Below, in pieces: positions 23,401 to 64,000 of a DNA stretch of 64,000 nt. Within the stretch, counting starts at the first letter, position 1. Each line of letters opens with the position of its first letter. The stretch covers positions 1,302,001 to 1,366,000 of the forward strand of contig NC_063154.1 of NCBI RefSeq assembly GCF_020921035.1, written 5' to 3'. A program made the translations under genes and the position numbers. The DNA comes from Rhodamnia argentea (taxonomy: Eukaryota; Streptophyta; Magnoliopsida; Myrtales; Myrtaceae). The notes beneath the pieces were generated by a model. The model was not told the origin of the DNA. It did no database searches and saw nothing but the letters and a program-made list of their open reading frames with translations.

Positions 23401-24519
23401 ACTGGCCTGTAAGAATAATGTTACCAACTGCTATGTTTGTGTTGCTTAAGAGCAGGATATTCTACTTTGATGCATTTGGGATGCTCTGATTTCAGGTTGT
23501 AGATATTGATCCTTTACATAGCATCAGGACGGCAATTAAAAGAATACCACCTGGTTGGGAAGATCCTTGGGGTCGAACAGAATGCCTTACATTGAAAGAA
23601 GCCCTAAATGCGTAAGCTGAATTTTCCTTTTTTGATGGCTTGTCAAGCTTGCTGCTTGCTGCTATTCACGTACACATTATGATAATCGATTTAGCAGTTA
23701 ATCGCAAATGAGTATCATTGTTAGCATGTTTTGCTGGACTGCTAGCCTAACGAGGAGAATTCCAGGGGTTGGCCAGATTGCTGATTTTCAAAATCATCCT
23801 ATTGGGACTGTATATGTCAGAACATTCATTTAGTTCTGTCCGGCAAAGTCATGTTAATCAAGAGTCCATATGGGGAGTTTGCTGTCGGGTTAAGGGCCAT
23901 TGCTGTGGTGGAAAAAGACTAATCAACAATGGCAAAAATGGAGGATGATTTAGCTCGGATTTGATGGAGGGGCTGGGCTGCCTAGGAAGCATTAGCTGCT
24001 ATTTACTTGTTCTGGGAACATTTCTCTCTCTTGACCCTACCAATTTTTATCAGTTGGCACCTTTCTTGTGCCATAACTCCCTGCATTCCTCTACTTTTCG
24101 GGGTGCAAAGGGGATTCTTTTATGTTTTTTTCACTGATCGGGTCCTGCTAATCCAAGAGTCGTTTATAATGAATCTGAAAGCTGTTAATGCAACTTTTCT
24201 ATTTACCAAGGGATTGGCCATCTCTCTCTGTGATGTGCATGAGCGACTGCACATGGATAGTTGTTCCACACGTCACTCTGCCCTGTTACTGCATTGGATT
24301 GTAAGCCCTTGTCAGCTTGTTGATCATAAATCTTGCCTCTGCAGATACACCATTTCAGCTGCCCAGGCATGCTTCCTGGACAATGACTTGGGCTCTTTAG
24401 CTCCTGGAAAGCTGGCAGACTTTGTCATCTTATCCACCGACTCATGGGATCAGCTTGCAGCAGGAGGATCCGCATCAGTCGTTGCAACATACGTGGGCGG
24501 TGTCAGATCATTCCCGTGA
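17496..24519 (+). CDS. LAF3: LAF3-like amidohydrolase (YtcJ-type metal-dependent hydrolase)
   Basis: Homologue of Arabidopsis LONG AFTER FAR-RED 3, needed for phytochrome A responses. Its substrate is not established. Exons: 17496-17574, 17685-17854, 18131-18232, 19242-19314, 19896-20002, 20100-20223, 20847-21041, 21514-21599, 22183-22290, 22496-22591, 22674-22772, 22910-22984, 23277-23408, 23496-23611, 24345-24519 (1737 nt, 578 aa). A hydrophobic N-terminus (residues 2-25) suggests a signal peptide or anchor. The catalytic fold is visible as H108/H110 in GFIDSHVH, K332 in GGVKAFADGSLGS, H384 in AIHAIGDKAND, H416 in EHAQH and D480 in FGSDWPV. It ends with the amidohydrolase tail LGSLAPGKLADFVIL. 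The length matches the Arabidopsis protein. The exon 8/9 junction spans a long intron. A further mini-exon there is not excluded but is not needed for the family alignment. Confidence 0.93.
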
Positions 24520-34719: not shown

Positions 34720-35559
34720 GGGAAATTTTCAAAAATAAGGTCTCAAGTATCCTCATTTTCTTAAATAAAGACTTGAAATGAATTTTGTTTAAAATAAGGA
34801 CTTGAAGTGCGATCATTATCTCATAAAAGGGCATGAAGTGGTTATAGTTATTTCAAATAAGGGTCTACCCTTGCCGATCGGCCAAATTTTTCAACCGATT
34901 CGGGATATTTACGTAAAAATACAAATTTAATCTAATTTTTTATTAACTTAAAAAAAAAGTAGGTGGGAGGTTTTAACCTCCTATCTATAGCCTCCGCTCC
35001 ACCATCGGTTGGGGGGGGGGGGTGGGGCAACGACTTTGGCCGTCGGGGTCATCGGTGCCTCGATGGGGGTAGGCGAAGGGCGCCGACACACCCCGATCTA
35101 GTCCCAGCCGGACTTGGGCGAGGGCTAGTAGGCCCTCGTCGTTGGTCGGTGGGATCGTCGGCCCTCGTCGAGACGCCGGCAACCCCAACGGCCATGGCCT
35201 GTAGTGGGGCGGCGGCCACATGGGAGAGGTCAAAACCTCTCGCATGTGTTCTTCTTTTCTTCTTCTCTTTTTTTCAAAATTTCTTGAAAAATAGAAAAAG
35301 GAAAAAGTAAAATAAAATAGTAAATGACCAAAATGTCGCTACCTAAAATAACTCAGCCCTTTTTTGAGATTAATATAGTAACTTTAGGCCCTTAGTTAAA
35401 ATAACATGCACATCATGGCATTCTTTGACATAATCATGGCACTTCAAGCCTTCATTTGACACAATTAGGGCATTTCAAGCCCTTATTTGAAACAATGTTT
35501 ATTTTAGGCTATTATTTGAAAAAATGAGGGCATTTGGAGCCCTTTTTTGAAATTTTCCC
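34720..35559. mobile_element. Mutator-like non-autonomous element with GC-rich core
   Basis: The ends are GGGAAATTTTCAAAAATAAG and, inverted on the right, GGGAAATTTCAAAAAAGGGC. Flanks are AAGAACATA (34711-34719) and AAAAACATA (35560-35568). This is a 9-bp target duplication with one mismatch, as expected of Mutator-type insertions. Subterminal regions carry repeated 'CTTATTTGAAA'-type units in opposite orientation on the two sides. The centre (about 35000-35250) is strikingly GC-rich, including a G12 run and repeated GGCCCTCGTCG motifs. No intact transposase was seen. Element length is 840 bp. Confidence 0.72.
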
Positions 35560-35678
35560 AAAAACATATAGTAGTACAAAATAAAAAACTTGATTATTTA
35601 AATTTTGGAAAATCTGCAGCATTTTCATGGGAAACGGATAAAAATGACAAAAGGATACATAAGTGTCAATACTTAAGT

Positions 35679-35971: not shown

Positions 35972-36161
35972 GCACCAATATTGGCAAGGTATCTTTATGC
36001 CGGGTAAAAATGGAGGATTGGTGGGGTTTTTGGTTTCTGGGGCCAAGGCGTTGAGAATAGATAGAGGAGGAAGTGGGGAAAGCTGGTTTTGATCATCATT
36101 CCTCACTTTCCCATTTCCTGCAACACCTTCTGCAGTTTCTGGGCGTTCGTTTTCCTTCTTC

Positions 36162-36381
36162 CTCTCTCTCTCTCTCTCTCTCTTCCCAAAGACGAACAAA
36201 AAGATCAAAACCATTTCAAAGATGGAAACTTGTCGTCCCAGCAAGCAACAACGACAATAATATCTCTCTCTCTCTCTCTCCTTGGTCTTATTTAGCAGCG
36301 CATGCAATTATTATTACTTTGTCACATATAACCTCGAGAGATTCTCATCACTCTCCATCTTCACTCTTCCTCTTCCAGAAG

Positions 36382-36413
<32 letters not shown>
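36162..36413 (+). promoter_or_regulatory. Three CT tracts in the LRP1-like leader
   Basis: Pure CT dinucleotide tracts at 36162-36183, 36263-36280 and 36385-36413 lead up to the LRP1-like start codon at 36418. GA/CT repeats in plant leaders are bound by BASIC PENTACYSTEINE (GAGA-binding) proteins. That they act here is inference. Confidence 0.55.
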
Positions 36414-36417
<4 letters not shown>

Positions 36418-37192
36418 ATGGCCACCACTCACCACTTCAACTACACCTCGGCCGACCACATCAACATGCTTGGCCTCCGAGACGTCGTTTTCATTGCCCC
36501 GCAGTCCTCCTTGCACCCCCAGCAACCCCAGCAACCGCCCCCCATCTCCGACCACCACCACCCCCCGAGCTTCCACTTGCCCTCGTCGACCGCCTTAGGC
36601 GTCGGCGTCAGCATATTCCCGGTTCTCACCGCGACGCCCTACAATGTCGTCGAAGACTGCGGGAACGCCAACAATAACGGGGAGGCCAGCAACACCGCGA
36701 ATTTCTGGAGGAGATGCGATGATCAGTCCAGCTTTTCCAAGAAAGACGTGTTGGGTGTCGGTGAAGACGAGAGCAACAGAGGCGAGAAGCTGGAGGAGAT
36801 TGGTGGGCTGAGCAATAGCAATTTGAGGGTGTGTAGGGACTGTGGGAATAGAGCCAAGAAGGAGTGTAGTTATAGGAGGTGCAGGACCTGTTGCAAGAGT
36901 AGAGGGTATGATTGCTCCACCCACGTAAGGAGCACGTGGGTGCCGGCAGCGAGGAGGCGGGAGCGGCAGATGGCCCCGGTGGGGATTGGCTTTGTCGGCG
37001 GTGGTGAGGGAGGAGCAGGAGGTGGCAGTGGTGGCGGCGGTTCTTCGGGGTCGTCTTCTGGAGTGAAGAGACCAAAACTAGTTGATGGGTCATCAAATCA
37101 CGGTGGAACTAATGCTTCTTCAACCTCGAATGCTACCACTCCTAGGAGCTTTGATACTAGTTCTTGTCATCATCAAGGTCCTCCCCCTCCCT

Positions 37193-37244
<52 letters not shown>

Positions 37245-37958
37245 AGATGGAGTATTAGGGGGCCACCGAGAGAAGGCGCCATCTGGGCAGCTTTAAATGA
37301 CGTTTTAAAATTGGCTGAAGCTAAGTAGTTCAGAAGATCTTAAGTCTCATGTGTTAGAAGTGTGAATCTTCAACTGAAAATAGAAAGGAAGATTGATCCA
37401 CGGGGTGGTAATTGGTGATGGAAAGCTCGGATTCTTATTATTTATATTGTCTTCTAGTGATTTCTTTAACGCGGGTATTTAAAGGAATTTATCCTCCTCT
37501 TGATTGATCAACTGATCTGCTTATTGGATCTTTATTCTAAGACCGATGTAGTGATTTCTTGGATTCCAGATGCTAGCTTCAAGCAGTCCTTACCGGGCCA
37601 AGTCCGTGCTCCCGCAGTTTTCAGGTGCATTAGAGTCACTGCAATTAGTGACAATGCAGCTGAATTCGCCTATCAAGCATCTGTTAGCATCAGCGGGCAT
37701 GTATTCAGGGGCTTCCTCTATGATCAGGGGATCGATGAGAAGAATGCGTTTCCATGTATTTCAGAACGTCGATTCGGAGGAGCCGCTGGCACAAGGATCG
37801 GGGATTCTTCTCCAATCGTCGACCCGCCAAATGCTTATGCAGCATCTGGTTGTCGCAGATTGCTTGAAGGTATAACCTCTCGTAGGACTAATCAACTATG
37901 TGTTCTACATTCTTCTTTAGTTAATGTCAGTGCAAGCCAATTCATGAATTTAATTTGA
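36418..37958 (+). CDS. LRP1: LRP1-like transcription factor, SHI/STY (SRS) family
   Basis: Zinc-finger transcription factor of the SHORT INTERNODES/STYLISH family, linked to auxin biosynthesis and organ primordia. Exons 36418-37177 and 37570-37958 (1149 nt, 382 aa). The N-terminus contains [12 protein letters not shown] and [16 protein letters not shown], as in Arabidopsis LRP1 rather than other SRS members. The RING-like finger starts at C139 ([20 protein letters not shown], followed by [11 protein letters not shown]) and runs into [13 protein letters not shown]. Exon 2 holds the second conserved domain: [18 protein letters not shown] ... [15 protein letters not shown] (residues about 262-308). 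The usual IGGH is ISGH here. PIVDPPNAY matches the LRP1 C-terminus. The last 30 or so residues are doubtful because a GTATAA donor-like site lies at 37870. An in-frame ATG at 36073 would translate the CT-rich leader and was rejected. Confidence 0.92.
37199..37242 (+). repeat. (CT)n microsatellite at the start of the LRP1-like intron
   Basis: About 22 CT repeats follow a CCTC-rich stretch, starting some 20 bases after the splice donor of the LRP1-like gene. Confidence 0.9.
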
Positions 37959-43556: not shown

Positions 43557-46500
43557 GAAAAATGAAGGAGAACTGTTCCAAAAAGCAATTTCACCTGCAA
43601 AGCTCTTGGAACCAAAACTTCTGCAATCTAAAAATAAAGTTGAGGTCCAGGTCTTTTAGGGTGGTGGTTGCATCAATGTCTGCCGCTGGTTTCTCAGTGA
43701 TACGACCATGTGAAGAACCTTTTAAGTCGAAGCGCCTGTGTATAGTGTTCTCCGAACAGAACAGATTTCCCATGATGACAAATCTTACCTGAATTAAGGA
43801 TTGTGCATTAGATGTATCAAAATTCAGTGAAGCTTATTAAAACATCAGGTTTTGTCTGGTTCTTAGTACCTCACATTACCTTCTTTTGGGTAGCCCCTGT
43901 CAATTTGACACAATGTAGGCCAAAAAATTTGGTAACTAGAGTATTCTCGTATGCCCTAAAGTGATTATAGTAAGCAGGTAGCATCCTCAAGAGCATCTGG
44001 ATCACATCAAGAGGCACGGTATTATTAAGGCACGTTCCAGATACTTAAAATAAGTCTGTCCAATAAGAAAAAGATACTTCCTAGAAGAGCAGAGTTGATT
44101 TCAATGATAACAATTCATGCAAAAAAGAAGTAATTAAGCCAAGGAAGTCTCTCGCTTATGGAAATAATCCAAATTGGACACTGTCTCAATTTGATTTAAA
44201 TGCCCTTTAATTTAGTCTTAGAAGTTTTTGCTATTTTTCTACAGGAGCTGCCATCCATGACACCAAAAATTTTGGAAGGCATCTAAATTCAACATCAAAT
44301 TCAACATCATTTCATGAACTTTGGATAAAGCTTTGTTTTTTCCAATAAACCAAACAGAGTACAGATTATTTATTTCATATTTTTGTGCAAGCTCAGAAAC
44401 TGACCTTCCCTTCTGCTTTCTTCACTGTCTTAATCATATAGCGGTCATCATTGGTTAAGTAAAAGAAACTTCCACTTTTTCCTGGGGATGAAAGTTCACG
44501 AAGAGCGTCATTTCCACATATAGAAATCATGTAATCTGCTGCGTCCACCTTGAACAACTTTCTGAGAGTCCTGTAGGGATAATGCAGGATGACGTATCAG
44601 TGCAGTTGACCTGGAACTAAACTGGTCTTATAGTCGGTGGCACTGAATATACTTTGGTAATGTTTTATGTACTCGAGAACTCAGAATGGATGGCAATACA
44701 TCTAGCCACTTGTTCATGAAATTGTTGTCCATGCATCTGAAAATCAGAAGACATTTCTCTCAAATCGCAAGAGTACACCTAGGCATTGTCAACATCGCAA
44801 AGAAGTATGTACTGAAATCAGAGTGCATGTCATATGAAATTCTCTCAAAATTTTAGTGTACCATAGCACTGATTGGCACGCATATCACAAAATTTAGCTA
44901 ATAGGAATTTATTATTTCAACAGTGAAAAGGTTTAGAGGTGTGACCTGAAAACCACTGGGCAGTAATCCTTCCACTTGAATTCACAAGATTGGTGAGGAG
45001 GAGTATGCTTAGATCCTTCAGGGGGAAATCTTGTCCACACCTTCTCTTTAGGATCAAAAGCTGAAGCCTTCAGATCCAAAGAGGTTGCTGGAGCGGGCCG
45101 CCCAACAGAGTGCCTGCAGGTTTCGAATAGCGTTATCGACAAGATTACACATCAGTTAATATAACTGCATCGATCTTCCTAGAATATACTACTTCCTGTT
45201 GCCAATCTAATCATTTGTTCATTTCCTTTTCCATTAGTTTCGTCCATTTTCTTCAAACAAAAAATCCATCATGGAAGCGCACTCTTTGGTTTGTTGGGCT
45301 GGTACTCTTACAAATTTCTAGAGAAATTAGAGATGAAAGCAACAACAGAAACTATATTGGTAGGACTAGATTTACGAGGAAGAGTTAGAATCTAGTCCAT
45401 CTGTCCAGAAAAAGGGAGCATCAGATTGATCTACAAAACTGAACCATGACCTCAATTTGAAAAATATTAAGCATATTTGATGCTGAGTCTGTTAACGTAA
45501 GGAAGACAAAAGTTCAAGAGGTTAATACAGCTACATATACCAAGGTGAAAACTCCTAGCTTGATCCGGATCAACTATGCATTTCATGATAAACACAGAAC
45601 AGACCACACAAAGCAAAAATCGTTTCAGCCTTAAAAAAGGGAATCTGCAATCGCCAATACCTGATTCCTAGTTGCAGATTGAGCATTAGCTCATAGTTCT
45701 TGTGCCCCTTCGTTATTGTCTCCCCTTGTCTCTTGACTGGCTGTATTCTTGAAGCCCGTTGCCTTGTGCGTGCTGTTCTCATATCCAAATCATCAAGCTG
45801 AATACTTCCTAGCCCTTCGACCATATTCCTAGGTGTCGCGTCTCCGTTTCTATCACCATGAGAATCCCAGCTATAATCACAGACCTTTGAGGGCTTGAAA
45901 ACCCCCTCAACAACAGGAGGACAGCTTAGCATCTTCTGTGAAGGCAAAACCAGCACCTTTTCACCAGTTGATACTCTACAGTCGTTTAAATCCACTGCAA
46001 AAACCTTTTGTGGGTCGAAATCGACATTACCCGCCATTGAGCCGGATCGATAGAATGTTCCACTCTGCTCCTTCGGGTCTGTGCTCCAGACACCCACGTA
46101 GGAACTCCCATCTGCCCATCTAAGAGTCCCATTTCCTTTAGGCAAACCGTCTTCCCATAACCCATCATATCGGTTTCCGTTAGTCCAAAGCATCGTGCCA
46201 TTTCCATTGATCACCCCATTTTTCCATTGTCCAACATAGTGGTTACCATTCATCCATCGGTACCTCCCATGACCATCCTGCAACCCGCGTTGCCATTCGC
46301 CTTCGTAATAATCCCCATTGGCATAACTCTTAGTCCCCTGTCCATGTTTCAAGTTCGTGGTCCAATAACCTCTATAAGTATCCCCTGAGGCACCTGTGTA
46401 AGTCCCTTTACCCTCCATATACCCGTTCTTGAATTCACCCTCATAAGTGGCTCCACTAGGCCAGCAAAATTTCCCTTTCCCGTTGGTCTTGCCTTTGTGC

Positions 46501-46799
46501 CACTCACCAACATACATACACCCATCAGTCCATAGGTACTTCCCGTGAACGTGGGGGAGGTTATCAGCCCACTGGCCAGTGTAGAAGTCGCCGTTGGAGA
46601 GGAGCTTCTCGGCATGGTAGACCTCGCCGGGGCTGGCATTGCAGCCGTCCTCCTCCTCCTCCTCCTCCTCCTCGTCGACGTGCGCCACCGACATCACGGC
46701 AAAAATGCTGTTTGCCCTTCTTTTGGTAGCGGCAGCAGTTTGCGATTTGCGTACCGTTAATTCCCAGGCCTTGACAATGCCAACATTTTCTTTGCTCAT
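42186..46799 (-). CDS. Phosphatidylinositol-4-phosphate 5-kinase with MORN repeats (plant subfamily B)
   Basis: Makes PtdIns(4,5)P2 at the plasma membrane. Plant members control polar growth and endocytosis. Exons 5' to 3' on the minus strand: 45661-46799, 44946-45113, 44405-44570, 43880-43996, 43595-43788, 43077-43222, 42907-42982, 42186-42474 (2295 nt, 764 aa). After [20 protein letters not shown] and an acidic run comes a block of about eight MORN repeats (e.g. [20 protein letters not shown]) at roughly residues 60-260. A Lys/Arg-rich linker follows. Then comes the kinase, with [42 protein letters not shown] (M610-D611-Y612) and the activation loop [20 protein letters not shown]. It is closest to PIP5K4/5/6. 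The start was chosen at MSKEN because PIP5K4/5 begin MSKE. An upstream in-frame ATG (46871) is less likely. Confidence 0.94.
43515..43552. repeat. (GA)19 microsatellite in a PIP5K intron
   Basis: A pure dinucleotide tract in the intron between PIP5K exons 5 and 6. It reads (TC)n on the coding strand, about 45 bases after the splice donor. Confidence 0.9.
46650..46674 (-). repeat. CTC/GAG trinucleotide tract encoding polyglutamate in PIP5K
   Basis: A GAG run on the coding strand encodes the acidic stretch [10 protein letters not shown] between the PIP5K N-terminus and the first MORN repeat. Related kinases have a shorter or Asp-rich acidic patch here. Confidence 0.8.
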
Positions 46800-46901
46800 T
46801 TCTCTCGTCAATACACCGAGAGAGAGAAAAGGCCCTCTCCGTTTACATTCTTTCTTCCTCGTCGCCTCCACGCATCTGTACCCAGATGAAAATCAAGCTC
46901 T

Positions 46902-49990: not shown

Positions 49991-50273
49991 CGAGAAAAGG
50001 TCGCCGGCCCTGGTCGGCTCCCCCTAGTTTTATCCATGGCAAAGTTTCAATTTGAGTATGCAAGAAAAAACCTAAGAAAAAGACATCGTTTTGGCGAAGC
50101 ATTAAATTTGAGGGACAGAAAAGAGCACACAATTTGAGCGGTCGGCGGGGTGAAAGGAAGCGTCTTTTCTGAGGCTGCACAAAAAAAAGGTTACTGAGAA
50201 GTAGGACCGAATATGGCAAACCCCATTCGCCTTTTGGATTCCCAGTTCGGCTTTCGTCAGTACCCAAATCCAT

Positions 50274-50304
<31 letters not shown>

Positions 50305-51654
50305 TCTCTTCATTTCATCATTACATTTCCAGATCCCACCCTCCACCACCACAGCACCACCATCAACACCTCTTTCGTGTTCAGATCGGACACTGCAGTA
50401 GGCGGCGGAGGAGGCCGTAGCCACCCTCTTTCACTCATTTATGAAGCTGACGATCCGTACCCAATAGAGAGTAATGATGAATGGTGTTCAAAAGCAGCTA
50501 AGCAATGTTGGTTCTTGATCTTGTCAACCCGCCATGTTCTCCATTTAGGTACACTCATTAATTGCTTGCGAAAAGAACCTGTTTTTGTTTTTGTTTTTTT
50601 TTTTTAAATTTGGGTTCTTTTGCAGAGCTGCAGGTCCAACCCTGATTCACTTTAGCATTTCTCGCCTCTTTCATCGAATTTCTTCTCGGCTTTAGCCTTT
50701 GCCTCACCCGTCAATTTCTTTCATTCGCTTGGTGGAATTCGATCTTGGTCTTTCGGTATGTTTCGAAATGACCACCGAGTTGAATCGTCTTCATTTCGTG
50801 TTCCAGCTTCCTATCGATCCGATCTTCCTTTGCACTGTTCTGGGCTTAAGTTGAAAACGTGAAAATGGTGCTTCACACACTACGATCATCCAGAGATGTT
50901 TTGATGCTGCTATACTCCTCTGCCACCAGATTTATTCCTTCTCCCTCGCCCATGACCACTTGTCAATAGCTTCGCTATCATTAAATTTTTAAAAGATGCT
51001 AAAGAGAGAACCATATTGAAACACCTCCCACCAAGAAAAAGTACATAAAATGGAGCCTGCTAGCCGGAAAAGGCGCGATTGGTCATTGCCGCAATGGTCG
51101 TCTAGCTACCAACAGAATAATATAGTAGCTGACTTAAGGTAATCCATCGCATCTCGTCTTTACATGTACAGACAGAGCCCATAGTTTCTCTAGTGTTCCT
51201 AAATCTTGTTCCAACATAAAATGGAACTAAGATAGAAAACAGTAAAGACCATAATAAAGTTAAAGCAACCCTCACTCCCGTTCTTTCTGTTTTTTTCTTT
51301 TTGTGTTTAGCTCTCTATCTGCATGACTAAGCTCCAGCATACCTTGTTCCCTAATTCCACCCAAAGAAAGAACATGAGCGAGCGAAGTGGGGAACAGAAA
51401 ATATTCTGGGTACTTCTCGCCGCCCAATCACTGTTATGGAGATGGTGATGTTTAGCAGTCGTTAGCACACCTTGGTTTTAGTGGACTTGGACCAAGTCCA
51501 GTCAAGGGTTTTCCCTGTTCTTTTTCCTAAACAATGCAGCACGTCATTGGGTCGTCGACTTCGAATCATTCATCTGAATCCAGTACGTGAGTATGTGCCA
51601 AGCACACAACAGAGCAGGAACAAATAAAGGGAACCCTAGCAAATTAATAAAATT
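49991..51654. other. Intergenic with a CT tract; possible transcript start
   Basis: A CT-rich run (50277-50309) is followed by moderately GC-rich sequence to about 50460. An acceptor-like TTTTGCAG ends at 50624. This could be the leader of a non-coding transcript. The frame starting at 50272 is low-complexity and unrecognised. A 34-codon frame at 50865 (MVLHTLRSSRDVLMLLYSS...) is also unrecognised. Confidence 0.3.
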
Positions 51655-52501
51655 GAAGAGGACAAGTAGCCGGTCTCTGATAATTTCCAATTCGTGAAGA
51701 GACGGAGTTAAAAGGGTTTGTTGATTGAGGACCAGATGATGAGTCGCACGATCGCGCACACACATTTAGGAAGTAAGGAATGGCAAAGAGCATGGAAGTT
51801 TGTTTTGTTGATTTGTTTGAAGGGGTAAGAAGCTGAAAATTATACAGGAGGAGGAGAAGAAACACGTTGATTATCGCTATAGATTTGTAGGTATAAACTC
51901 TGAGAGAACGCATATTGCTCAACGTGAAAATGCAGCAGTAACGACAAGATTCAACTGGTGGGCAGACATTTATGCCAACTTGTTTTGCACGCAGATGGAG
52001 ACAAGCATCAGTTGCTAAAAGCTTTAGAGTGTGTGATCTCAACTCTGGAATAATCAAATTCAGGCTGACTAACAAGTTAATCAAAAGTGCAAGCTATATC
52101 AGATTTATGGTGGTAAGAAGGCTCCTCCGGCGGAGCAGCTGACCAGCAAAGTGCAGAAAAGACAATTCAAAGGAGTCTCCAACTTTGTGTTAATTTGATT
52201 TGGATCTAATTGCTCTTGGAAAGCGTAATGTCACTCAAGTCTTGAGAAACCAAGAGAATAAAGCACGCTATTGAAACTCTCAAGCATAACATCATTTACA
52301 TAATAATAACATGAACGCATTGACCGTTTGCTCAGGCTGCTAGCCAACAACACAAGCTTTAAACTGAATTTCACAATTTTGCATTCACTATCAAATTGAA
52401 GTCACTAGATAACAAACAGATTTACGCAATAATTGAATTATCAAAGAGCTAGAATCTCTTTACCCAAAAAAAACAAAAGAGCTAGAATCTGAGATCTCAT
52501 G

Positions 52502-53835
52502 TCAGCACTGACCCCGGAGTTGCAATGTGAATTTCTGCAGTGAAAGCAGAACCTGCTTTAGCCTCTCCTTGACCTCTGCATCGATCAAGTTTCCATCGGC
52601 ATCAAACTTTGCAGGAGGTTGAAATGCATATACGAAAAGCTCGGGCTTGTTAATGAAATGAAGATCGACGTACACCCCTGTCTGCCGGAGATGATATTGC
52701 GCTCTTCCGCCGCCAAAATTTCCTCCAGCACTTACTATAGCAGCAGCTTTATCGGCCCAAACATTCGGTGGCCTAGATGCCCAATCTATCGCATTCTTGA
52801 GAGGCGCTGGCACAGCAATAGAACTTTCTCAAGAAATAGGACGCATGACTCAGTTTTTCTGCTAATGATGATATGTCTTATGCCCTCATAACTTTGATTG
52901 TTCTTTTTCATTTCGTGCCTTTGTTTTCAACTCAGCAAAAAACACAAGGAATGTACGTCTAGTCAGCTGATTTATAGCTGCTGCAGTCCAGTTGCAAGAA
53001 CTGAGATTGATCAAGAAAAATGCAGCTTCCCAATTGTTCAATAGTCATGAGCCTAAATCATATCTACTGGACTCCATGCTCATTCATGGTTTTAAGTAGC
53101 TGTAACATCCCGAAGCTGGTAAGGAAAGACTTCTTAATCTTGTTAAAACTGGCTGATCTAAAGGAGTGAGTGCGGTCTGTCACCGCACAGCCATCACTCA
53201 CCAGGTGTTCGGCAAAATTCTCGGCTACAAAATTCACATATAGTTTGGTCTCCTCAATTGAAGGCAATTTTCTTTTTTTTTTCACTTCAGCCCCATCGAA
53301 GGCCAGCATAATAACAAGTCTTCAACTTCCTGAATCAAGAACTAGTTCAAGTGCTCGATTCTCAAGTGCCATATCAGATACCACCATCACAACAAAACCC
53401 GATTTCAATAGGCAAAAGCAAAACAAAAGGAGAGAAAAGGGCAAAGAGATTTACGAGCAATGGAGTAGTTGTACTCGGGAGAGGCAAAGAGAAAGCTATC
53501 GGCTCTCGAAATCTTGCGACGGAACTCTTCGACCACAGCCGGGAATTTGCCGCCTTCTTCTTCGAGGTCGGTGTTGATCATGGGGAGAGGCGACACTTCC
53601 ACGTACTCGATTTGCATACCAGGGATCGACTCCTTGCATATCTCCATTGCTTCAATCGAACCGAAACAGCAAACGAGGGACCAAATCACCTCACTACACT
53701 ACAAGATTCTCAGAGCGCGAGAGACGCACAGAGACAGAGATTTTCACCTGAACGGACGAGGCCTCCGTTATAGGAAGCTTTCCGAAGAGAACCGCAGAGG
53801 GCTGCAACTTTGATGGCAGATTTAGTTGCTTCCAT
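52502..53835 (-). CDS. NQR: NADPH:quinone oxidoreductase (FMN flavodoxin-like)
   Basis: Soluble flavoenzyme that reduces quinones by two electrons with NAD(P)H, protecting against oxidative stress. Exons 5' to 3' on the minus strand: 53748-53835, 53455-53649, 52502-52806 (588 nt, 195 aa, the usual size for plant NQR). The start MEATKSAIKVAALCGSLRKA contains the phosphate-binding GSLRKAS motif. Exon 2 gives SPLPMINTDLE and FASPEYNYS (FMN site). Exon 3 gives PPLKNAIDWASRPPNVWADK, GGGRAQYHLRQ, HFINKPELFVYAFQPPAKFD and KERLKQVLLSLQ. The exon 3 acceptor was set at 52807 (GTGCCAG|CGCC), the only position that keeps phase and family length. A pseudogene copy lies 4.3 kb to the right. Confidence 0.93.
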
Positions 53836-54059
53836 CTCTTGCTCTGTCTCCCCTCTAAAATTCCTGTCCGAGTGAAATTGATCCCTTGCAGTTTGTTGGA
53901 GAATCTCCGCTCTATTAGAAGACGGAACGGATCAAATTCGGAAATCTTCAATAATAGCAGGGAATATTCCAACAAGGAAGTGCGCTCATTTTTACAAATA
54001 AAAATCTGACATGGGTCCTACGAGTTTTAAGTGCATTCAATAGAGGAAATTTGGATCAG

Positions 54060-54540
54060 GGGCCTCTGTTATAGGAATCTTCGTGTCCTTATTTGAAAAA
54101 TTTGAGCATATTTCGGATCTTTAGTTGAAATTTTCTCTATTCATCATTTCAAAAAAGGGTCTAATGTTATTTTGTCATTTATGTTTTCTAATTTTTTTCA
54201 TTTTTTTTTTCCTTTTTCTTTCTTCCTTTTTGCCAATGGTCAATTTCGGGCGATGGCCAACCATCGACGAGGGTCGGGCGGCCACAGGCAAGGTGACCCT
54301 CAATGACCACAGCGAGGGTCAATGAGGTCGTCTAGCCCTATTCGATGGCCGGCCATCGCTTGAGGCCACCGGAGAAAAGGAAAAGAAAAAAAAAAAGGAA
54401 AAAAAGTAAAAAATCAGAAACTCTAAATAACTAAAACATCATTGGTCCGGTTCTTCTTCGAAACATAAAAGCACTTTAAGCCTTATTTGAAACAATATTC
54501 ATTTCAGTCTCTTATTTGAAATTTTTGCATAATAGTATTG
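54060..54540. repeat. AT-rich repeat with GC-rich core (copy A), related to the Mutator-like element
   Basis: It has opposed 'CTTATTTGAAA' units at the edges, poly-T/poly-A inner arms, and a GC-rich centre (about 54240-54370) with GGCCGGCCATCG-type motifs. Organisation is the same as the 34720-35559 element. Clean ends and target duplication were not found. Confidence 0.5.
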
Positions 54541-54544
54541 TAAC

Positions 54545-55420
54545 ATCTAGGATGAGCAACATGGATCGATCGAAACGGGAATCGCCCGGCCCGGCCTGGC
54601 CGGTCGGTCCGATTCTCGGGGAGTGTCGGTCTTGGTTCCCCGATTCAATAAAAGTGGAATCGGTGATTAATTTTTGGTTTGGTTCCCGGTTCTAGGAGGG
54701 AATCGAACCGCCCTGACTAGACCGATTATAATTTTATTATTTTTATCTCTTTACAAAAAATTAAAGGATAGAGTATAAATCCTAAATGTTTACACTTTAC
54801 AGGCAATCGACTTGCATAATACTCATGCTTACTCCTCTTTCGTCTATCCCTCCTAATGCTCTCACGCGGTGCCTTTGCCTCTTAACACTCGCTCTTCTTT
54901 CCCTCTCAACTCTCACGCTTCTTTCAGACTTGCACAATCACAAACCCTAATCAGCTAATCGCTCTCGCCCTCTCTCGCCTGAGTGACTGACTAATTTGCG
55001 GGCTCTCATCAGGGTAAGGTAATATCCAATGCTCAAGACAACTAGTCCAATGAGGTAATTAATCTTTTTAAGTGATATTTTTAAGTGGGGAACTGGAACC
55101 TTCCATTTTGTGTATTTACAGTTGGTGGACGGGAAAAACAGGTGATTTTGAATGAAGCTTCTTGATGTTGTTATGTTTTTACTTTTTCGTTCTGAAATGG
55201 CTTTTGAAAATTGGAATATGCTCGTCTTGATGTAATTATTGATAATGCGTCCAGTCAAATGATTAGACCTCCCAAGAACCCAACCGGTTCCAAGACCATA
55301 TAGTCCAGTTCCCGATTTCAGAAACAGAAAACCAGTTCTCCCGGTCCGGTTCCCCGTTCATGGTGCGATCAAACTGGTTTGAGAACCGATCCTCCCTTAT
55401 AATAGTCAAGTCCAACGAAG
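54545..55420. repeat. GGTTC-rich repeat with exon-like interior (copy A)
   Basis: The left end (CTAGGATGAGCAACATGGAT) and right end (inverted AGGGAGGATCGGTTC) are GGTTC/CCGG-rich and resemble each other in inverse orientation. The interior holds a leader-like pyrimidine-rich stretch with a telo-box (AAACCCTAA at 54942) and a strong splice-donor-like GTAAGG at 55014. The sister copy lies at 58700-59420. Confidence 0.5.
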
Positions 55421-55715
55421 GCGAAGAGTAGTTGCCGGGGCCCAAGGACTCGGACAAAGAGCGACTCTTGATAGGCTTCTAGGATAACGAAAATGGCATG
55501 AATTTATCGAACCGCACACTAGACATGGGGAAAGCGTGCTTTATATAGATATATACGGAGGCGCCTTTTAACATAAGGCAAGTTTTCCTTTGAAATTCCA
55601 AAATTAAGAGTGCTAAGGTTAGATTACTATCAAAACGGGAGACTTATTGAGAAAGTATTTGGCGAAAACCATGAGGCTCGGTAAGGGACAAGTCACAATG
55701 ATAATATCTCGATGT

Positions 55716-55981
55716 GTGTTGGGATCAAAATATTCGTTATATCCTTTCCATCAGTGACATTTGACAGAGTGATTGAAAAGTATCATGCACCAGTGCTAGT
55801 TAGGTTCGTCAAACTGGTTAATAGGAGGGTTTAAGCTTGATAATAAGACTGGCTTTAAATAAGAATTTGAACGAGGGAGACGTATTCAACATTCACGATT
55901 AGTTTTGGACATCATGCTAATAGCTTATTACATCAGTCTTACCACAACTTAACGTCATTAAAAGATGAAATAAACAGAACC
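55716..55981. other. Junction between the two duplication units
   Basis: Sequence separating the recognisable homology of copy A and copy B. Nothing coding was seen. Confidence 0.4.
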
Positions 55982-56792
55982 GAAGAGGACAAGTAGCCGG
56001 GCTATGAAAATTTCCAATTCGCGAACGGACGGCGTTAAAAGGGTTTGTCGATTGAGGACCAGATGACGAGTCACGTGCAAATACACGTAGGTTTGGTACG
56101 GAATCGTGGTCTTGGGAAGAAAGTAATGGCAAAAGGCATCGTATTTTGTCTTGTTGATTTGTTTGAAGGGGGTAAGAAGCTGAAAATTATACAAAAGGAG
56201 GAGAAGACATACTAGGATTATCGACATACATTTATCGGTATAAACTCCGAGAGAATGCATATCGCTCAATGCGAACATGCGGCAGAATCGACGAGATTCA
56301 ACAACCACTAGGCATGAATCTCTATAGGGAGACAATCATGCCAACTCGTTTTGCACGCAGGTAGATACAAGCATGAGTTCCTAATATGTACTTGCAGTTT
56401 CAGAGAGAGTGTGATCTGGACATAGAAATAATCAGCTAACAAGTTAATCAAAAGCGCAAGTTGTATCAGATTTAAGGTGCTAAGAAGACTCCTCTGGCGG
56501 AGGAGCTGACCAGCAAAGTGCAGAAAAGACAATTCAAAGGAGTCTCCAACTTTGTGTTGGTTTGATTTGGATCTAATTGCTCTCAGAAAGCGTAATGTCG
56601 ATTTGAGTCTTGAGAAACCAAGGGAATAAAGCAGACTATCAAACCATTGATCGCTTGCTTATGCTGTTAGCCAACAATACAAGCTTGAAACTAAATTCCA
56701 ACAATTTTGCATTCACTATCAAATTGAAGTCACTAGAGAACAAACAAATAATGTACCACACCATAATTATCAAAGAGCTGGAATTTGAGATC

Positions 56793-57712
56793 TCATGTCA
56801 GCAGTGGCCCCGGAGTCGGCAATGTGAATTTCTGCAGTGGAAGCAGAACCTGCTTTAGCTTCTCCTTGACCTCTGCACCGATCAAGTTTCCATCGGCATC
56901 AAACTTTGCAGGAGGTTGAAATGCATGTACGAAAAGCTCGGGCTTGTTAATGAAATGAAGATCGACGGACACCCCTGTCCGCTGGAGATGATATTGCGCT
57001 CTTCCGCTACCAAAATTTCCTCCAACACTTGCCACAGCAGCAGCTTTATCGGCCCAAACATTCGGCGGTCTAGATGCCCAATCTATTTCATTCTTGAGAG
57101 ACGCTGGTACATCAATAGTAACTTTCTCAAAAAAAATTACGACGCATCACGCATCAAGTTTTTCTGCGAATGATAATATGTTTTATACCCTTCGTAACTT
57201 TGATCGTTCTTTTTCATTTCGTGCGGTTTTTTGGGTAAAATGCTCTGCTGTAAAATTCACACATAGTTTGGTCGCCCTTTTTTTTTAAAAACGTCAGCCC
57301 CATCGAAGGCCAGCATAGTAAGGGCAAAGTGATTTCCGAGCAATGGAGTAATTGTACTCGGGAAGAGGCAAAGAGAAAGCTATCGGCTCCCGAAATCTTG
57401 CGACGGAACTCTTCGACCACAGCCGGGAATTTGCCGCCTTGTTCGAGGTCGGGGTTGATCATGGGGAGAGTCAACACCTCCACGTACTCGATTTGCATAC
57501 CAGTGATCGACTCTTTGCATATCTCCATTGCTTCAATCAAACCGAAACCAGCAAATGAAAAATCAAATCAAATCACCTCACTACCCTGCACGATTCTCCC
57601 AGCTCAAGAGACGCATAGCGACAGAGATTTCTCCGGAACGAACAAGGCCTCTGTCGTAGGAAGCTTTCCGAGGAGGACCGCAGAGAGCTCCAACTTTGAT
57701 GGTTGCCTCCAT
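56793..57712 (-). pseudogene. NADPH:quinone oxidoreductase pseudogene (tandem copy)
   Basis: Exon-equivalent blocks on the minus strand: 57634-57712, about 57354-57540, 56793-57103. Several lesions are visible against the intact copy. The exon 1 donor GT is GA (57633-57632). The exon 2 donor GT is GG (at about 57353-57352). One extra base near 57373 shifts frame just before the FASPEYN motif. GSLRKAS has become GPPRKAS. Exon 3 remains open and well conserved (RPPNVWADKAAA, HFINKPELFVHAFQPPAKFD) but with KNEIDW for KNAIDW. A 411-bp insertion separates the start codon from its former leader. A functional protein is not expected. Confidence 0.88.
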
Positions 57713-57713
57713 C

Positions 57714-58124
57714 TGTCACGGGGTCAATTACAGTGACCAGAGAATGTGTTTAGAGAAAAAGTTTTGAAAGAAAATGATTTGTATTTCTTATGCAAAGGAT
57801 TGAGAAAGTCCTCTATTTATGCAATAAGCCTGTCGATGGATATCGTTAATCAAACTCTAAATTTAATGGTAGAGATTGCACCTAAGGAATGAGAAAATAT
57901 TTCTCTTTCTGGTATTCACATTACAAGGTATATTAATTCTTGAGAATATACTTCTCTTCCTAGCAATCACTTTAAATATTCTAGAATACGATACATTTAC
58001 CATATCGTACATCCCTAAGACTATCTTAGAGGACTTAAGAAAATCCTAGAAACACTCCAAGTCATGTGGTTAATCCTGGTTACGTCGTTGATCGGTTGGC
58101 TTACGGAACCTCCAGTCTATGACA
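57714..58124. mobile_element. Probable solo LTR inserted at the NQR pseudogene start codon
   Basis: This 411-bp block is absent from copy A. It begins TGTCACGGGG and ends CTATGACA, i.e. TG...CA with a 5-bp inverted TGTCA/TGACA terminus. It is flanked by CATC on both sides (57710-57713 and 58125-58128). A TATA-like CTCTATTTATGC lies inside. No coding frame is present. A solo LTR is the best reading. Only 4 bp of target duplication are visible where 5 are usual, so a TIR element is an alternative. Confidence 0.65.
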
Positions 58125-58269
58125 CATCTCTATCTAAGATTCCTGTATGAGTGAAATTGATCCTTGTTGTTTGTCGGAGAATCTCCGCCCTATTAGAAAT
58201 TCCAAACAAGGAAGTGCACTCATTTTTACAAATAAAAATCTAAAATGTATCTTTCCTCAAATAAGAGTT

Positions 58270-58690
58270 TAAAGTGCATTCATCATTTCAAAAAATGGCC
58301 CGATGAAAGGTATTTTCGTCATTTATATTTTTTGATTTTTTTCCTTTTGTTTCTTTTTTTTCTTCTTTTGTTTCTTTTTTACTTTTTTCTTTCTTCCTTT
58401 TCGTCGATAGCCGGTCTTAGGCAATGGCCGGCCACAGGCGAAGCCGCCATTGATAGCTGCAGTGAGGGCCAAAGAGGCCACCTAGCCATCGTTTGAGATC
58501 GGCCACCGGCAAAAAAGAAAAAAGGAAAAAAGGAAAAAAATCAAAAAATTTAAATAATGAAAATACCCTTAGCCATGCCCTTCTTTGAAATAATAAGAGC
58601 ATTTTATGCCCTTATTTGAAACAATATTCTCTTGGGATCCTTATTTAAGAAAACAAGGCCACTTTAAATCCTTATTTAGAATTTTCCAAT
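58270..58690. repeat. AT-rich repeat with GC-rich core (copy B)
   Basis: Counterpart of 54060-54540 in the duplicated unit, with the same order of poly-T arm, GC core (AATGGCCGGCCACAGGCG) and CTTATTTGAAA units. Confidence 0.5.
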
Positions 58691-58699
58691 AATAATATT

Positions 58700-59420
58700 G
58701 TAACAACTAGGGCGAACAACACGGATTGACCAAACCGGGAACCCCCGGCCCGACTAGTTCGGTTCGGTTCGATTCCCGGAAGTGATGGTCCGGTTCCTGG
58801 TTCCTAGTGTAATAAAAGTGGAACCAGTGATTTTTGTTACGCTTCCCAGTTTTAGGAGGGAATCGGACCGCCCAGCTCTCGTACGGTGCTTCGCCTCTTA
58901 ATGTTCGCTTTTATTTCCCTCTCAATTCTCACGTCTATTTCAGAGTTGCGCAATCACAAACCCTAATCGACTAATCTCTCTTTCCCTCTCTCGCCTAGGC
59001 GACTGATTGAGTCGCCTCTCATCAAGGTAAGGTAATATCCAATGCTCAAGATAACTAGTCCAGCGAGGTACTCAATTAATTATTCTTTTTAAGTGATGTG
59101 AGTAATTTTTAAGTGGGTACCTTCCATTTTGTTTATTTACTGTTGATCAATGGGAAAAAGAAGTGATTTTGAATGAAGCTTCTTGATGTTGTTATGTTTT
59201 TACTTTTTTTCTTGAAATGGCCTTTGAAAATTGGAATATGCTCATCTTGAGGTATTCATAGAAAATGCTCCTAGTCCAATGATTACATCACCCGGGAATA
59301 AAACCGGTTCCAGGATTAGGTAGTCTAGTTCCCGGTTCCAGAAATAGGAAAACAGTCCTCATGGTCCGGTTCCCCGTTCAAGTTGGACCGGACCATTTTG
59401 GGAACCGATCACCCTTTGTA
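58700..59420. repeat. GGTTC-rich repeat with exon-like interior (copy B)
   Basis: Counterpart of 54545-55420. Left end CTAGGGCGAACAACACGGAT. The telo-box (AAACCCTAA at 58958) and donor-like AAG|GTAAGG (59027) are kept. Confidence 0.5.
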
Positions 59421-59755
59421 ATAGTCAAGTCCATCGATGGCAGAGAGTAGTTGTCAAGGTCCAAGGGCTAGGACAAAGGGCGGCTCTTGGCAAGTTTCTA
59501 GGATGACGAAAATGGCATGAATTAACCGAGTCGCACGCTAAACAAGGGAGAACATGCTTGAGAAAGTACCTATCAAAAACCGTGAGCTTGATAGGGGACG
59601 AGTTAGAGCACTATCAAGTTTAAGCGAGTTAAGGCTAGAGCACTATCAAAATTAAGTGTGCTAAGGTTAGAGCATTATCAAGATAGGTAACTTACTAAGA
59701 AAGTACCTAGTAAAATCGCGAGGCTCGGTAGGAGAAGGGTTAAAATGGATAATAT

Positions 59756-60165
59756 TTTGAGCGAGTTATTCCAAGAATGTCATAATATGATATCGGAGCG
59801 GGACCCCGAACCACGTGAAAGCTGGTGAGCCCGTAATAGCTCGATTCAACAAGGGTGATGAGTTGTCGCCGGGGTAAGAATGCTCAAATAAGGAGCGGCT
59901 CCTAGCAGGCTTCTAAAATAACGAAGGAGGCACGAATAAACCAAATTGCTCGCCGAACGTGGGGAGAAGGTGCTTGGGATTAATAACGATGAACTTCGTT
60001 TTGAAATTCCAAAATTAAGCGTGATAAGGTTATAGCACTATCATGATGGAAGATCTCCTGGGAAAGAGTCTGCTTGCACGTCAAAGAACAAAACCATGAG
60101 GCATAGTAAGTCACATATCAAAGCGGACAACACCTCGAGTGAGTTAATCGAGAGATGTCTCAAGT
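59756..60165. repeat. Partial third copy of the duplication tail, with primer-site-like motif
   Basis: It contains TGATATCGGAGC (about 59789), similar to plant retrotransposon primer-binding sites. A further diverged version of the tail seen at 55425-55715 and 59440-59755 follows (GGAGCGGCTCCTAGCAGGCT, GGCACGAATAAACC). It suggests that the tail is itself an LTR-derived repeat. Confidence 0.45.
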
Positions 60166-61690
60166 ATGGCTGGCGTTGATAATTACAAGAATAGGTTCAA
60201 CGAATTGACAATGCCTCATAATTTTAGATGGAGAAGCGAGCCATGGCAACTTTTAGCTGGATCTATCAATGATCCTAATGCCATGTCGAGCGTCTGTGAT
60301 TTGCAACTCTTTCTACTCGGTTTTTGCCCGATTGAATGCATTCATGTTCAATCCATCTCTCCACACTGGTCCCGTCCTGCGTCAGGCTCGGTCCCACGAA
60401 CGTGGAATTAGGGCCGAAGACATGAAAGCAGGCTTCGGCTCATCCTTTGGTGCTCTTGCTCGCGTACGTGTCGTGTTTGCACGTGAGGGCGCCAGTTGAC
60501 GCGTTGACTCTACCCATCGCTTTCTTTATGTCGTCTCAAGCCCTGTGAAATTATTTCACTGCTTCTTTTTCAAAATTGTTTCTCTCTTGATTTAAAGGAA
60601 GGTCAATGAATTAGCATGCCAGTGAATTTTACCTAACAGTAGTAGTAAAGACCTATTGCGGATTTGACAAGTCAAATTAGCAAAAACCGGCCACATTGAT
60701 TGATGAATGGACCCAAGGCATTTTATCAAACATGCTTCACAATGAATCTTATTAATGAGTGCATCGGAGCACTCGTCAACCATGCTCAATAGAGAAGCAC
60801 TTTGATTTTCAATGCACCGATTACACGTGATAAGAGAGAGGCCGAGCATTGGGAATAGTAGATTTTCTTTGTTTGGGTGTTTCACAAGTGCCCTAAAGTT
60901 CCTTTTCCAACAAAATCCTTGTGGGTCAGCACAGTGATAATTATGACCTTATCTTTCGTTCGTGGAGGATTTGACCAAATGCGATTAGTGGCCCCAAATC
61001 GTATAGATGAGGGAAAGCCTCAAAGGGACATTGATGCTACCATCATGCAAGTTGGGTCCTAAATTTGACGACAATGGCCAAACTCAGCGCAAGCTATTAT
61101 AGTCCCCGGTCACTCTATAAAGAAGCGCTTTAACTAGATCCGTGTATTAATTAAAGTCTCCTTCACATTAACTTCCTCACCATTAATTGCAATACCTAAC
61201 TTTGATGTTCGCTACGTGGGTGACTTTATTGATAGATTCGGTAGGTGATTCTTTTCTTTAGCTGATTGGGCTCGCCTAAATCCGGATTTATATGAATCGA
61301 ATTGGTACGACCTTCGATCGCTGGCACGACGAGCGATTATAAATTAAATTTGGATTCGCGAACTTTGGTTGAATGCCAGAGTTTCTCCCGTCCCACGTCC
61401 ACGATCGACTCTCGAGAATTTCACGTTCATCGAGAAGCTCAATAGGACAGACCCTCTTTCTCTTTTTCCCGTCTTATCCTTTCTTCCCCCCCAAATCGCG
61501 GATTAAAAAAAGGGGGGAAAAGACAAGCCCGGGCGCCACGATGACGTGGCAGCCGACGTGGACGTCCAAACGCGCGAAGGAACGATGAAGCCGTGCGCAA
61601 CTGCGAAGGAAGTGAGCAAGCGGAAAACGACAAGGCCCAGAGTATGTCTTCATCTCTCTCCACCGACCTCCTATTTCCGTGATCCGAGAC
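60166..61690. other. Intergenic / upstream region of the arabinosyltransferase gene
   Basis: No gene recognised. Composition becomes GC-richer after 61450, where the promoter or leader of the next gene probably begins. A (CT)n tract lies at 61698-61724. Confidence 0.4.
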
Positions 61691-61978
61691 ACGATATCCT
61701 CTCTCTCTCTCTCTCTCTCTCTCTTCTGTGTTGTGGCCACGTCGATCTCGTGAGTTCTCTGTTCGCACTTTCTGAATCTTCCCGATCGATTATGGCGCGT
61801 TTCCTTTCCTTTGCCCTTTGCTTTATTCCTTGATTGACTCGCACTCCTAGCAATGCTTTTCGCGCTGCGGTTCGTCATTGACCGTCAGTATATTCGGCCC
61901 CTTCCGTTCGCTCTCTCTCCTCCTCCGAATTGAATTTAGAATTTCATCTGCCGGGATTGAGGTTCTTCAGTTTCTCCG

Positions 61979-62249
61979 GTGAGTTTTCGTTTCCGGAGGT
62001 TTTTCACGTTAATTACGTTTACGACACTCCGCTTCTGTGGACTCTGACTGTCTCTTGTCTGAGAATTTCCGTGCTTGATTGGATTTTCGACCGAGTTTTT
62101 CTTTTAAGGCAATGTGAATGGGTTTGTTTCGGGTATGGTGCGTTATAGTTAGCGGCGACTTTTTCTATTTACGTTGACTTCCTTCGGGCACTGCGCTATG
62201 CCTGACTGTGTCCGGAAGATCCCTAAGATATCTTGGTTTATGTCTGCAG
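61979..62249 (+). other. 5'UTR intron 1 of the arabinosyltransferase gene
   Basis: Donor CTCCG|GTGAGT at 61979 and acceptor TGTCTGCAG ending 62249. The spliced leader exon would be 62250-62291. Confidence 0.6.
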
Positions 62250-62898: not shown

Positions 62899-62956
62899 GA
62901 AGGCACTCCGGACATTGACAACGGCGTGATCGTCTTCTGTTTTGTCATCTGGAGTT

Positions 62957-64000
62957 ATGTTCGGAAGGAAAGCCATGGGAAGGGCATCCCCAGTCTTACT
63001 CTTTCTTTTGGCTCTACTGTTTTCCTTTGCTACATACAACATCCTAACTATGATACGGCACAACAGAGCAATTAAAAATTTGGTGGGCGCTAATACAAAT
63101 GGTGTGCTAGTATCAGATCCAATTGTTGAGATGCCTGAGAATGTGAAGAAACCAAAACATGCAAAGTCGCCTTTCCACGTCGCCCTTACAGCAACAGACG
63201 CTCCTTACAGCAAATGGCAGTGTCGCATTATGTATTACTGGTATAAGCAGAAAAAGGACTTACCAGGTTCAGAGATGGGAGGATTTACTCGGATTTTGCA
63301 TTCTGGAAGTCCCGATAACTTGATGGGCGAGATTCCTACGATGGTGGTGGATCCTCTTCCAGCAGGCCTGGATAAGGTAAGTCATTTTCTCTGTCAATTG
63401 TCCAATAGCTCATGCTTGTCTGATACTGCTAGTTTTTCAATTGTATCACCTGCGAGATACTAAAAAACTCTGGTTTGTTGGCTTTGTCTTTTGGTGTATG
63501 TGCCCACAATACTTATAGAACTTTTGTGCTAGCTATGGTGTGCTTTCTCTTGGTATTGTGAGCATTCTGAAATAAATGAGTTAGCTATACGTTCTTCATA
63601 GCTGTCTGAACACACAATAAGGAGATATAACGTACCTGAAATCTACCCCCTCAAGGAGTCAGATGCGAGTATTTCTTTGGTTTTCTAAGTAAGTTGCTAA
63701 CAGACCAGGGTGTAGTGGACGTTTGCAGTAGCTTTCTGATGTGGGGTTTCTCAAATGATCAGTACAGAAATTTCCTTATTGCAGCAGTAATATGTGATAT
63801 GTACAGTTGGAAGAATTTTGCTTGATTCTCATTCTAGTTTTGTAGCATGTATTGAACTTATTTTCTTCAGAGTCGCACGCGTTCGAACACAATAAGCAAT
63901 CTTTCAGAAATATACTGGGATGAGTAGCTGTGGTTATACATTATTACTTTGAGATTGTCTGATGCCATTTTTGTGCACCATAATCAGGGATACGTCGTCT
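62957..64000 (+). CDS. Hydroxyproline O-arabinosyltransferase (HPAT/RDN1 family), 5' part
   Basis: Golgi type-II membrane enzyme that puts the first arabinose on hydroxyproline of extensins and CLE peptides. Coding exons seen: 62957-63376 (140 aa) and 63988-64000, where the window ends. The rest lies to the right. The short basic N-terminus MFGRKAMGRASP is followed by a membrane anchor (about residues 13-32, LLFLLALLFSFATYNILTMI). The lumenal start of the family domain reads FHVALTATDAPYSKWQCRIM, YYWYKQKKDLPGSEMGGFTR, then ILHSGSPDNLMGEIPTMVVD and PLPAGLDK|GYVV. The start at 62957 was preferred to an in-frame ATG at 62942 because family members begin close to the MGRASP block. Two leader introns precede it. 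Confidence 0.93.

Follow-up and report, generated by a model that had tools for sequence, protein, structure and literature searches.

Two adjacent copies of an NQR-type flavin reductase gene, each embedded in a unit of about 4 kb, lie side by side in the 64,000-nucleotide stretch of the Rhodamnia argentea genome analyzed here (contig NC_063154.1, positions 1,302,001 to 1,366,000; the whole stretch is further called the window). We very confidently explain this arrangement as a tandem duplication of the gene unit, including transposons that were already lodged in it, followed by the decay of one copy. The duplication is directly observed as two neighboring copies in the same orientation with homology extending beyond the gene. 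The left copy (A) has retained a complete reading frame, while the right copy (B) is a predicted pseudogene.

Two collinear blocks in direct orientation

Comparison of positions 50000-62000 with the window by blastn, together with alignments, delimited two collinear direct blocks (Table 1). They are connected by eight collinear direct matches with E-values from 0.0 to 1.1e-10 and identities of 66-88%, far above chance. Copy B is offset from copy A by 4327 on the left and by 4013-4048 from position 54873 onward to the right. The homology spans the distal 3' flank, the gene, its 5' region, two nested repeats and a tail, and a homology confined to the gene is ruled out by the matches across flanks, repeats and tail. 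The initial annotation had claimed a tandem duplication of about 4 kb between 51655 and 59755, with the same landmark order in both blocks and a left offset of about 4.3 kb. The matches and alignments bear out the duplication, the order and the offset, and the proposed limits are correct within about 15-35 bases. The self-comparison did not refute the claim since the homology goes beyond the gene.

The intact gene copy

In both blocks the gene is encoded by the minus strand. Copy A consists of three exons with GT-AG junctions and has a coding sequence of 588 bases, encoding 195 intact residues. The protein matches the Pfam profile PF03358 (FMN_red) with an E-value of 5.4e-39 and 133.6 bits (cut-off 24), with residues 8-153 aligned to profile positions 1-147 of 152. 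Its best match in the PDB is 1rtt (E-value 3.9e-45, over residues 7-187), with chromate reductases coming next. Both matches support the NQR identity that the initial annotation had given to the gene. On these profile and structure matches, copy A is predicted to encode an NADPH-dependent FMN reductase of the plant NQR type; the protein nearly fills the family profile and shows no notable difference from it. NQR is presumably the appropriate name for this plant group. A tblastn search of the whole window with the copy A protein (E-values up to 1) found no NQR locus besides A and B, and the one extra match, 11 residues at 53970-53938 with an E-value of 0.95, is at chance level.

The decayed gene copy

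Alignment to copy A points to copy B as a pseudogene, with both 5' splice sites lost, two 1-base frameshifts and an insertion resembling a long terminal repeat (LTR) at the start codon. The splice-site and frame lesions would preclude a normal product, and on their account we reject the idea that B still works as a gene. In our reading, no enzyme is produced from copy B, and the pair illustrates how gene copies ordinarily arise and die. Copy B also lacks two stretches of copy A intron 2, 52925-53215 (about 290 bp) and 53316-53436 (about 120 bp), either through insertion in A or through deletion in B.

The residue changes between A and B were polarized with 63 prokaryote homologues, all of which were used with the best segment of each; they are partly close kin of one another, and the end columns are thinly covered (down to two sequences at residue 194). 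Among the 26 residue differences, the residue of A is the commoner one at 20 positions and that of B at three, with three ties (sign test of 20 versus 3, P about 0.0005, calculated by hand). A column was considered conserved when one residue reached 70%, which holds for 49 columns. Copy A retains 46 of these and departs at three, while copy B departs at ten; seven of the ten are peculiar to B, and A has none of its own. Two of the conserved-column changes of copy B fall in the GSLR loop. Because both comparisons favor A, we infer that copy A has been constrained and that copy B has decayed.

Mobile elements and the order of events

Two nested repeats are found in both blocks. The fold-back (inverted-repeat) element occupies the same insertion place in A and B, with about 95 extra bases at its left end in copy A that are not in copy B. 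The GGTTCC-rich element has similar ends and the same flanking context in both copies. Both elements thus likely predate the duplication, because they share place and flanks. Further pieces of the fold-back family are present at 34733-34835 and 35414-35573, in both orientations. The GGTTCC-rich element apparently sits at the very start of a Cassandra LTR (54539-54547/55398-55405 in A, 58699-58707/59417-59424 in B); it is preceded by a TGTAACA-like sequence and followed, as judged by eye, by TATAATAG in A or TGTAATAG in B. It is possibly a DNA transposon whose insertion into the first LTR bases duplicated them.

The tail of each block corresponds to an LTR of a Cassandra-type terminal-repeat retrotransposon in miniature (TRIM), denoted T_A and T_B, and a third such LTR (T_C) follows copy B beyond the limit of the duplicated block. 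Compared with a plant 5S rRNA sequence, the three are the best 5S-like places in the 64 kb, and 0, 1 and 0 of 2000 shuffles, respectively, reach their scores. The two 5S boxes printed in PMC7215508 are matched with one mismatch by T_B, four by T_A and six by T_C. The value of T_A is tied by a reverse-strand site at 11851, and 20 shuffled windows, searched on one strand each, gave best values of 3 to 6, with six of them reaching four or fewer. Only T_B therefore stands out in the box test, and T_A and T_C are identified via the 5S comparison and their homology to T_B. Rfam returned no 5S rRNA match at the gathering threshold in the whole window, nor at E-values up to 10 on 51000-60600 and 59960-60130. 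Within T_B, the 5S-like stretch is expanded at 59604-59684 as a 32-bp tandem repeat of 2.5 copies.

Together, T_B, a sequence resembling a primer-binding site (PBS) and T_C make up a 747-bp element whose LTRs are 44 bp apart. We take it to be an old, decayed Cassandra, apparently of full length (LTR-PBS-LTR). It resembles the Cassandra TRIMs described in PMC7215508 and PMC10853983 in the 5S-rRNA-like stretch of its LTRs, the tRNA-Met-like PBS after the left LTR, a total length of about 750 bp and the lack of visible coding capacity. It differs from them in its decay: the two LTRs are about 71% identical, the PBS has two mismatches, and no polypurine tract was recognized by eye at 59800-59831. 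The elements in the PMC10853983 data set are 563 to 968 bp long with an LTR/LTR identity of at least 74%, so that the present element falls inside the length range and under the identity minimum. Seven other places in the window have no more mismatches to the PBS 12-mer than the site at 59788, whose position therefore weighs more than the match itself. With LTR ends set by alignment, T_A and T_B are 78% identical, T_A and T_C 75%, and T_B and T_C 71%. T_A being closer to T_B than T_B is to T_C is consistent with the presence of the TRIM before the duplication.

The insertion at the start codon of copy B is 411 bp long and has TG...CA ends and a target-site duplication of four bases (CATC), while LTR elements usually produce one of five bases. 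On its ends and target duplication we call it a solo LTR. Copy A has a single CATC and no insert at this site, which corresponds to the empty site. Because only B carries it, flanked by the target-site duplication, and A shows the empty site, the insertion is probably younger than the gene duplication. The start codon of copy B falls within the CATC duplication. Read in the same sense as the gene, the insertion carries an ATAAATA motif at position 305 of 411, about 100 bases before this start codon. A search with 57716-58127 found no second copy of the insertion in the window.

Taken in order, a roughly 4-kb unit would have been copied in direct tandem; it comprised a flavin reductase gene, the flanks of this gene and, already lodged upstream, a fold-back element, a GGTTCC-rich element and a Cassandra-type TRIM. 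Copy A would have remained under purifying selection, while copy B would have lost constraint and both 5' splice sites and gained two frameshifts. An LTR retrotransposon would have inserted at its start codon, of which the solo LTR remains. The initial annotation had described much the same history, and its parts hold: one copy is intact and the other decayed (the whole coding sequence of A against the splice, frame and conserved-residue damage of B), the nested repeats are older than the duplication (common insertion places), and the LTR-like insertion postdates it (B only, CATC repeats, empty site in A). The assignment of the tail to a Cassandra-type TRIM LTR and the position of the LTR insertion on the start codon are refinements beyond that annotation.

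Divergence between the copies

The Kimura two-parameter (K2P) distance between A and B is 0.05-0.16 in the exons, 0.16-0.20 in the introns and 0.14 immediately 5' of the gene. It amounts to 0.21-0.23 in the distal 3' flank and the 3' untranslated region, save one conserved block at 0.08. The fold-back element stands at 0.42, the left part of the GGTTCC-rich element at 0.32, the portion to its right at 0.20-0.26 and the tail at 0.38. At substitution rates of about 2-7e-9 per site and year, a K2P of 0.2 would correspond to some 15-50 million years, which is a guess.

The conserved block of 164 bp (52069-52232/56436-56599) lies about 270-430 bp past the stop codon and is 93% identical between A and B, compared to about 81% for its neighbors (binomial P about 2e-5, before correcting for the choice of segment). 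We rejected 52069-52232 as an exon, since its 12 differences show no codon periodicity by eye and three peptides have no Pfam match. A conserved 3' regulatory element could explain the block, as could a conversion tract.

Several observations weigh against the proposed history. The codon comparison of A and B gave a Ks of 0.120, a Ka of 0.063 and a Ka/Ks of 0.53 (95% bootstrap 0.28-1.12), a ratio that alone is no proof of relaxed selection. The Ks is below the non-coding divergence, and the date therefore depends on the yardstick. The nested repeats (K2P 0.42, 0.32 and 0.38) diverge more than the rest (about 0.2), and later changes within the repeats must be assumed. CpG sites explain this only in part, with 54% of the CpG columns of the fold-back element differing versus 28% of its other columns. 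The identity between T_A and T_C nearly equals that between T_A and T_B. Finally, the ends, the target duplication and the ATAAATA site are the sole marks of the LTR nature of the 411-bp insertion.

Table 1. Features of the duplicated region and blastn matches between the blocks (positions within the window; matches given as A/B)
Feature	Position	Strand or orientation	Remarks
Copy A block	51641-55741	.	self blastn, alignments, A/B LTR alignment to 55741; last ~20 bases (Cassandra LTR end) weakly supported
Stretch between copies	55742-55967	.	~230 bp; no relative in window (queries 55715-55975, 55710-55967)
Copy B block	55968-59787	direct	self blastn, alignments, LTR alignment
Copy A exon 1, NQR/FMN reductase gene	53748-53835	-	ATG at 53835; 5' splice site CAG/GTGAAA
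Copy A exon 2	53455-53649	-	acceptor GAAG/CAATGG, donor CTC/GTAAAT
Copy A exon 3	52502-52806	-	acceptor CCAG/CGCC; stop codon 52504-52502
Copy B exon 1 relic	57634-57712	-	9 bases fewer than A; 5' splice site GT to GA; ends by alignment to A
Copy B exon 2 relic	57338-57530	-	1-base insertion (frameshift) at 57363; 3 bases fewer than A; 5' splice site GT to GG
Copy B exon 3 relic	56798-57103	-	1-base insertion (frameshift) at 56818, altering C terminus
Solo-LTR-like insertion	57714-58124	-	411 bp; ends TGTCA...TGACA; absent from copy A
CATC target-site duplication, left	57710-57713	.	minus strand GATG, contains copy B start codon
CATC target-site duplication, right	58125-58128	.	alignment
Fold-back element, copy A	54040-54530	.	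ends approximate; self-inverted match 54163-54443, relative 58278-58629
Fold-back element, copy B	58212-58664	.	arms 58212-58364 and 58512-58664, 153 nt, 72% complementary
GGTTCC-rich repeat, copy A	54547-55397	.	sequence of the GGTTCCCGGTTC type near each end; resembles a DNA transposon (type and limits by eye)
GGTTCC-rich repeat, copy B	58707-59416	.	ends by eye
T_A, single Cassandra-type LTR, right end of copy A	55398-55741	+	5S-like stretch from 55594; aligned to T_B, T_C
T_B, Cassandra-type LTR, right end of copy B	59417-59787	+	left LTR of element; alignment; local 32-bp tandem expansion
PBS-like TGATATCGGAGC	59788-59799	+	2 mismatches to TGGTATCAGAGC; directly after T_B
T_C, right LTR of element behind copy B	59832-60163	+	outside duplicated block; 5S-like stretch from 60005; LTR alignments
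blastn match 1	51641-52926/55968-57232	direct	78%
blastn match 2	53208-53314/57231-57321	direct	71%
blastn match 3	53437-53816/57320-57702	direct	88%
blastn match 4	53854-53920/58133-58198	direct	88%
blastn match 5	53966-54039/58199-58282	direct	79%
blastn match 6	54139-54713/58278-58873	direct	66%
blastn match 7	54858-55529/58875-59548	direct	80%
blastn match 8	55599-55707/59647-59755	direct	75%

Origin of the duplication and alternative explanations

The sequence between the copies (55710-55967) has no match above shuffles either in the left flank of copy A (score reached by 105 of 200 shuffles) or in the sequence after copy B (by 53 of 200). Since it matches neither flank, a non-homologous or template-switching event is the most likely origin of the duplication and our best guess. 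The main rival is that Cassandra LTRs or other repeats on either side of the ancestral gene crossed over unequally and that the left repeat was later lost. The homology ends rightward at or near the end of a Cassandra-type LTR in both blocks, another LTR follows copy B, and LTR-LTR recombination that yields tandem arrays of Cassandra itself is on record in PMC7215508, all of which count for this explanation. Nevertheless, the left side of copy A yielded no Cassandra-like sequence, the LTRs already named being the three highest-ranking 5S-like places of the window, and classical crossing-over between flanking repeats finds no support in the left flank or the inter-copy stretch. We therefore consider the crossing-over improbable, at perhaps one chance in a handful, and keep to a non-homologous or template-switching event as the likeliest origin.

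Copy B could also be alive, with the LTR and its ATAAATA site driving an alternatively spliced transcript. The orientation and place of the insertion and the preservation of the start codon in the target duplication would fit such a role. Both normal 5' splice sites are destroyed, however, the reading frame is shifted twice, an unspliced reading from the ATG meets a stop after 43 codons, and conserved residues are altered, including the two in the GSLR loop, which makes a live copy B very unlikely. It is slightly less probable again that the solo LTR captured copy B as a transcription unit whose transcript regulates the live NQR gene in trans, as a small RNA or a decoy (in exons 3 and 2, copy B shares about 93-95% identity with copy A), with the 164-bp block downstream of both copies being part of a shared regulation. 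An assembly artefact, or two haplotypes joined end to end, has nothing specific in its favor and is the least credible alternative, given that the non-coding sequence has diverged by about 0.2: introns and non-repeat flanks, where alignable, differ mostly by about 12-21% (7% in the 164-bp block), which is higher than expected between alleles, with many insertions and deletions, the LTR-like insertion is unique to B, about 420 bases of intron 2 occur in A only, and the window contains no N. A tandem duplication followed by the decay of copy B remains our explanation of the locus.

Other genes in the window

The Pfam scan covered nine of the 50 listed open reading frames of the window, four of which matched, and the copy A protein. 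The matches comprise a DUF702 gene (36073-37296), which we take to be of the SHI/STY type, a minus-strand gene with seven MORN repeats (45570-46871), the N-terminal part of a hydroxyproline O-arabinosyltransferase (62942-63463) and the C-terminal part of an amidohydrolase (24007-24519). Such a gene content seems typical of flowering plants.

Significance

A tandem duplicate with a pseudogene is an ordinary event in biology, and the pair described here is the same in kind as other plant tandem duplications with pseudogenization of one copy: the copies are adjacent and direct, one is constrained and the other carries splice, frame and transposon damage. In literature searches aimed at Eucalyptus and Arabidopsis, the titles and abstract openings of the papers listed mention no NQR tandem pair. 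For gene annotation, copy B should not be called an expressed gene. The difference from typical plant tandem pseudogenes lies in the nested elements, which let the order of events be read. The locus is thus a worked example in which four mobile elements bracket one gene duplication and make the order of events legible at a single place: the TRIM, fold-back and GGTTCC-rich elements would have come first, then the duplication, and then the damage and the LTR insertion in one copy.

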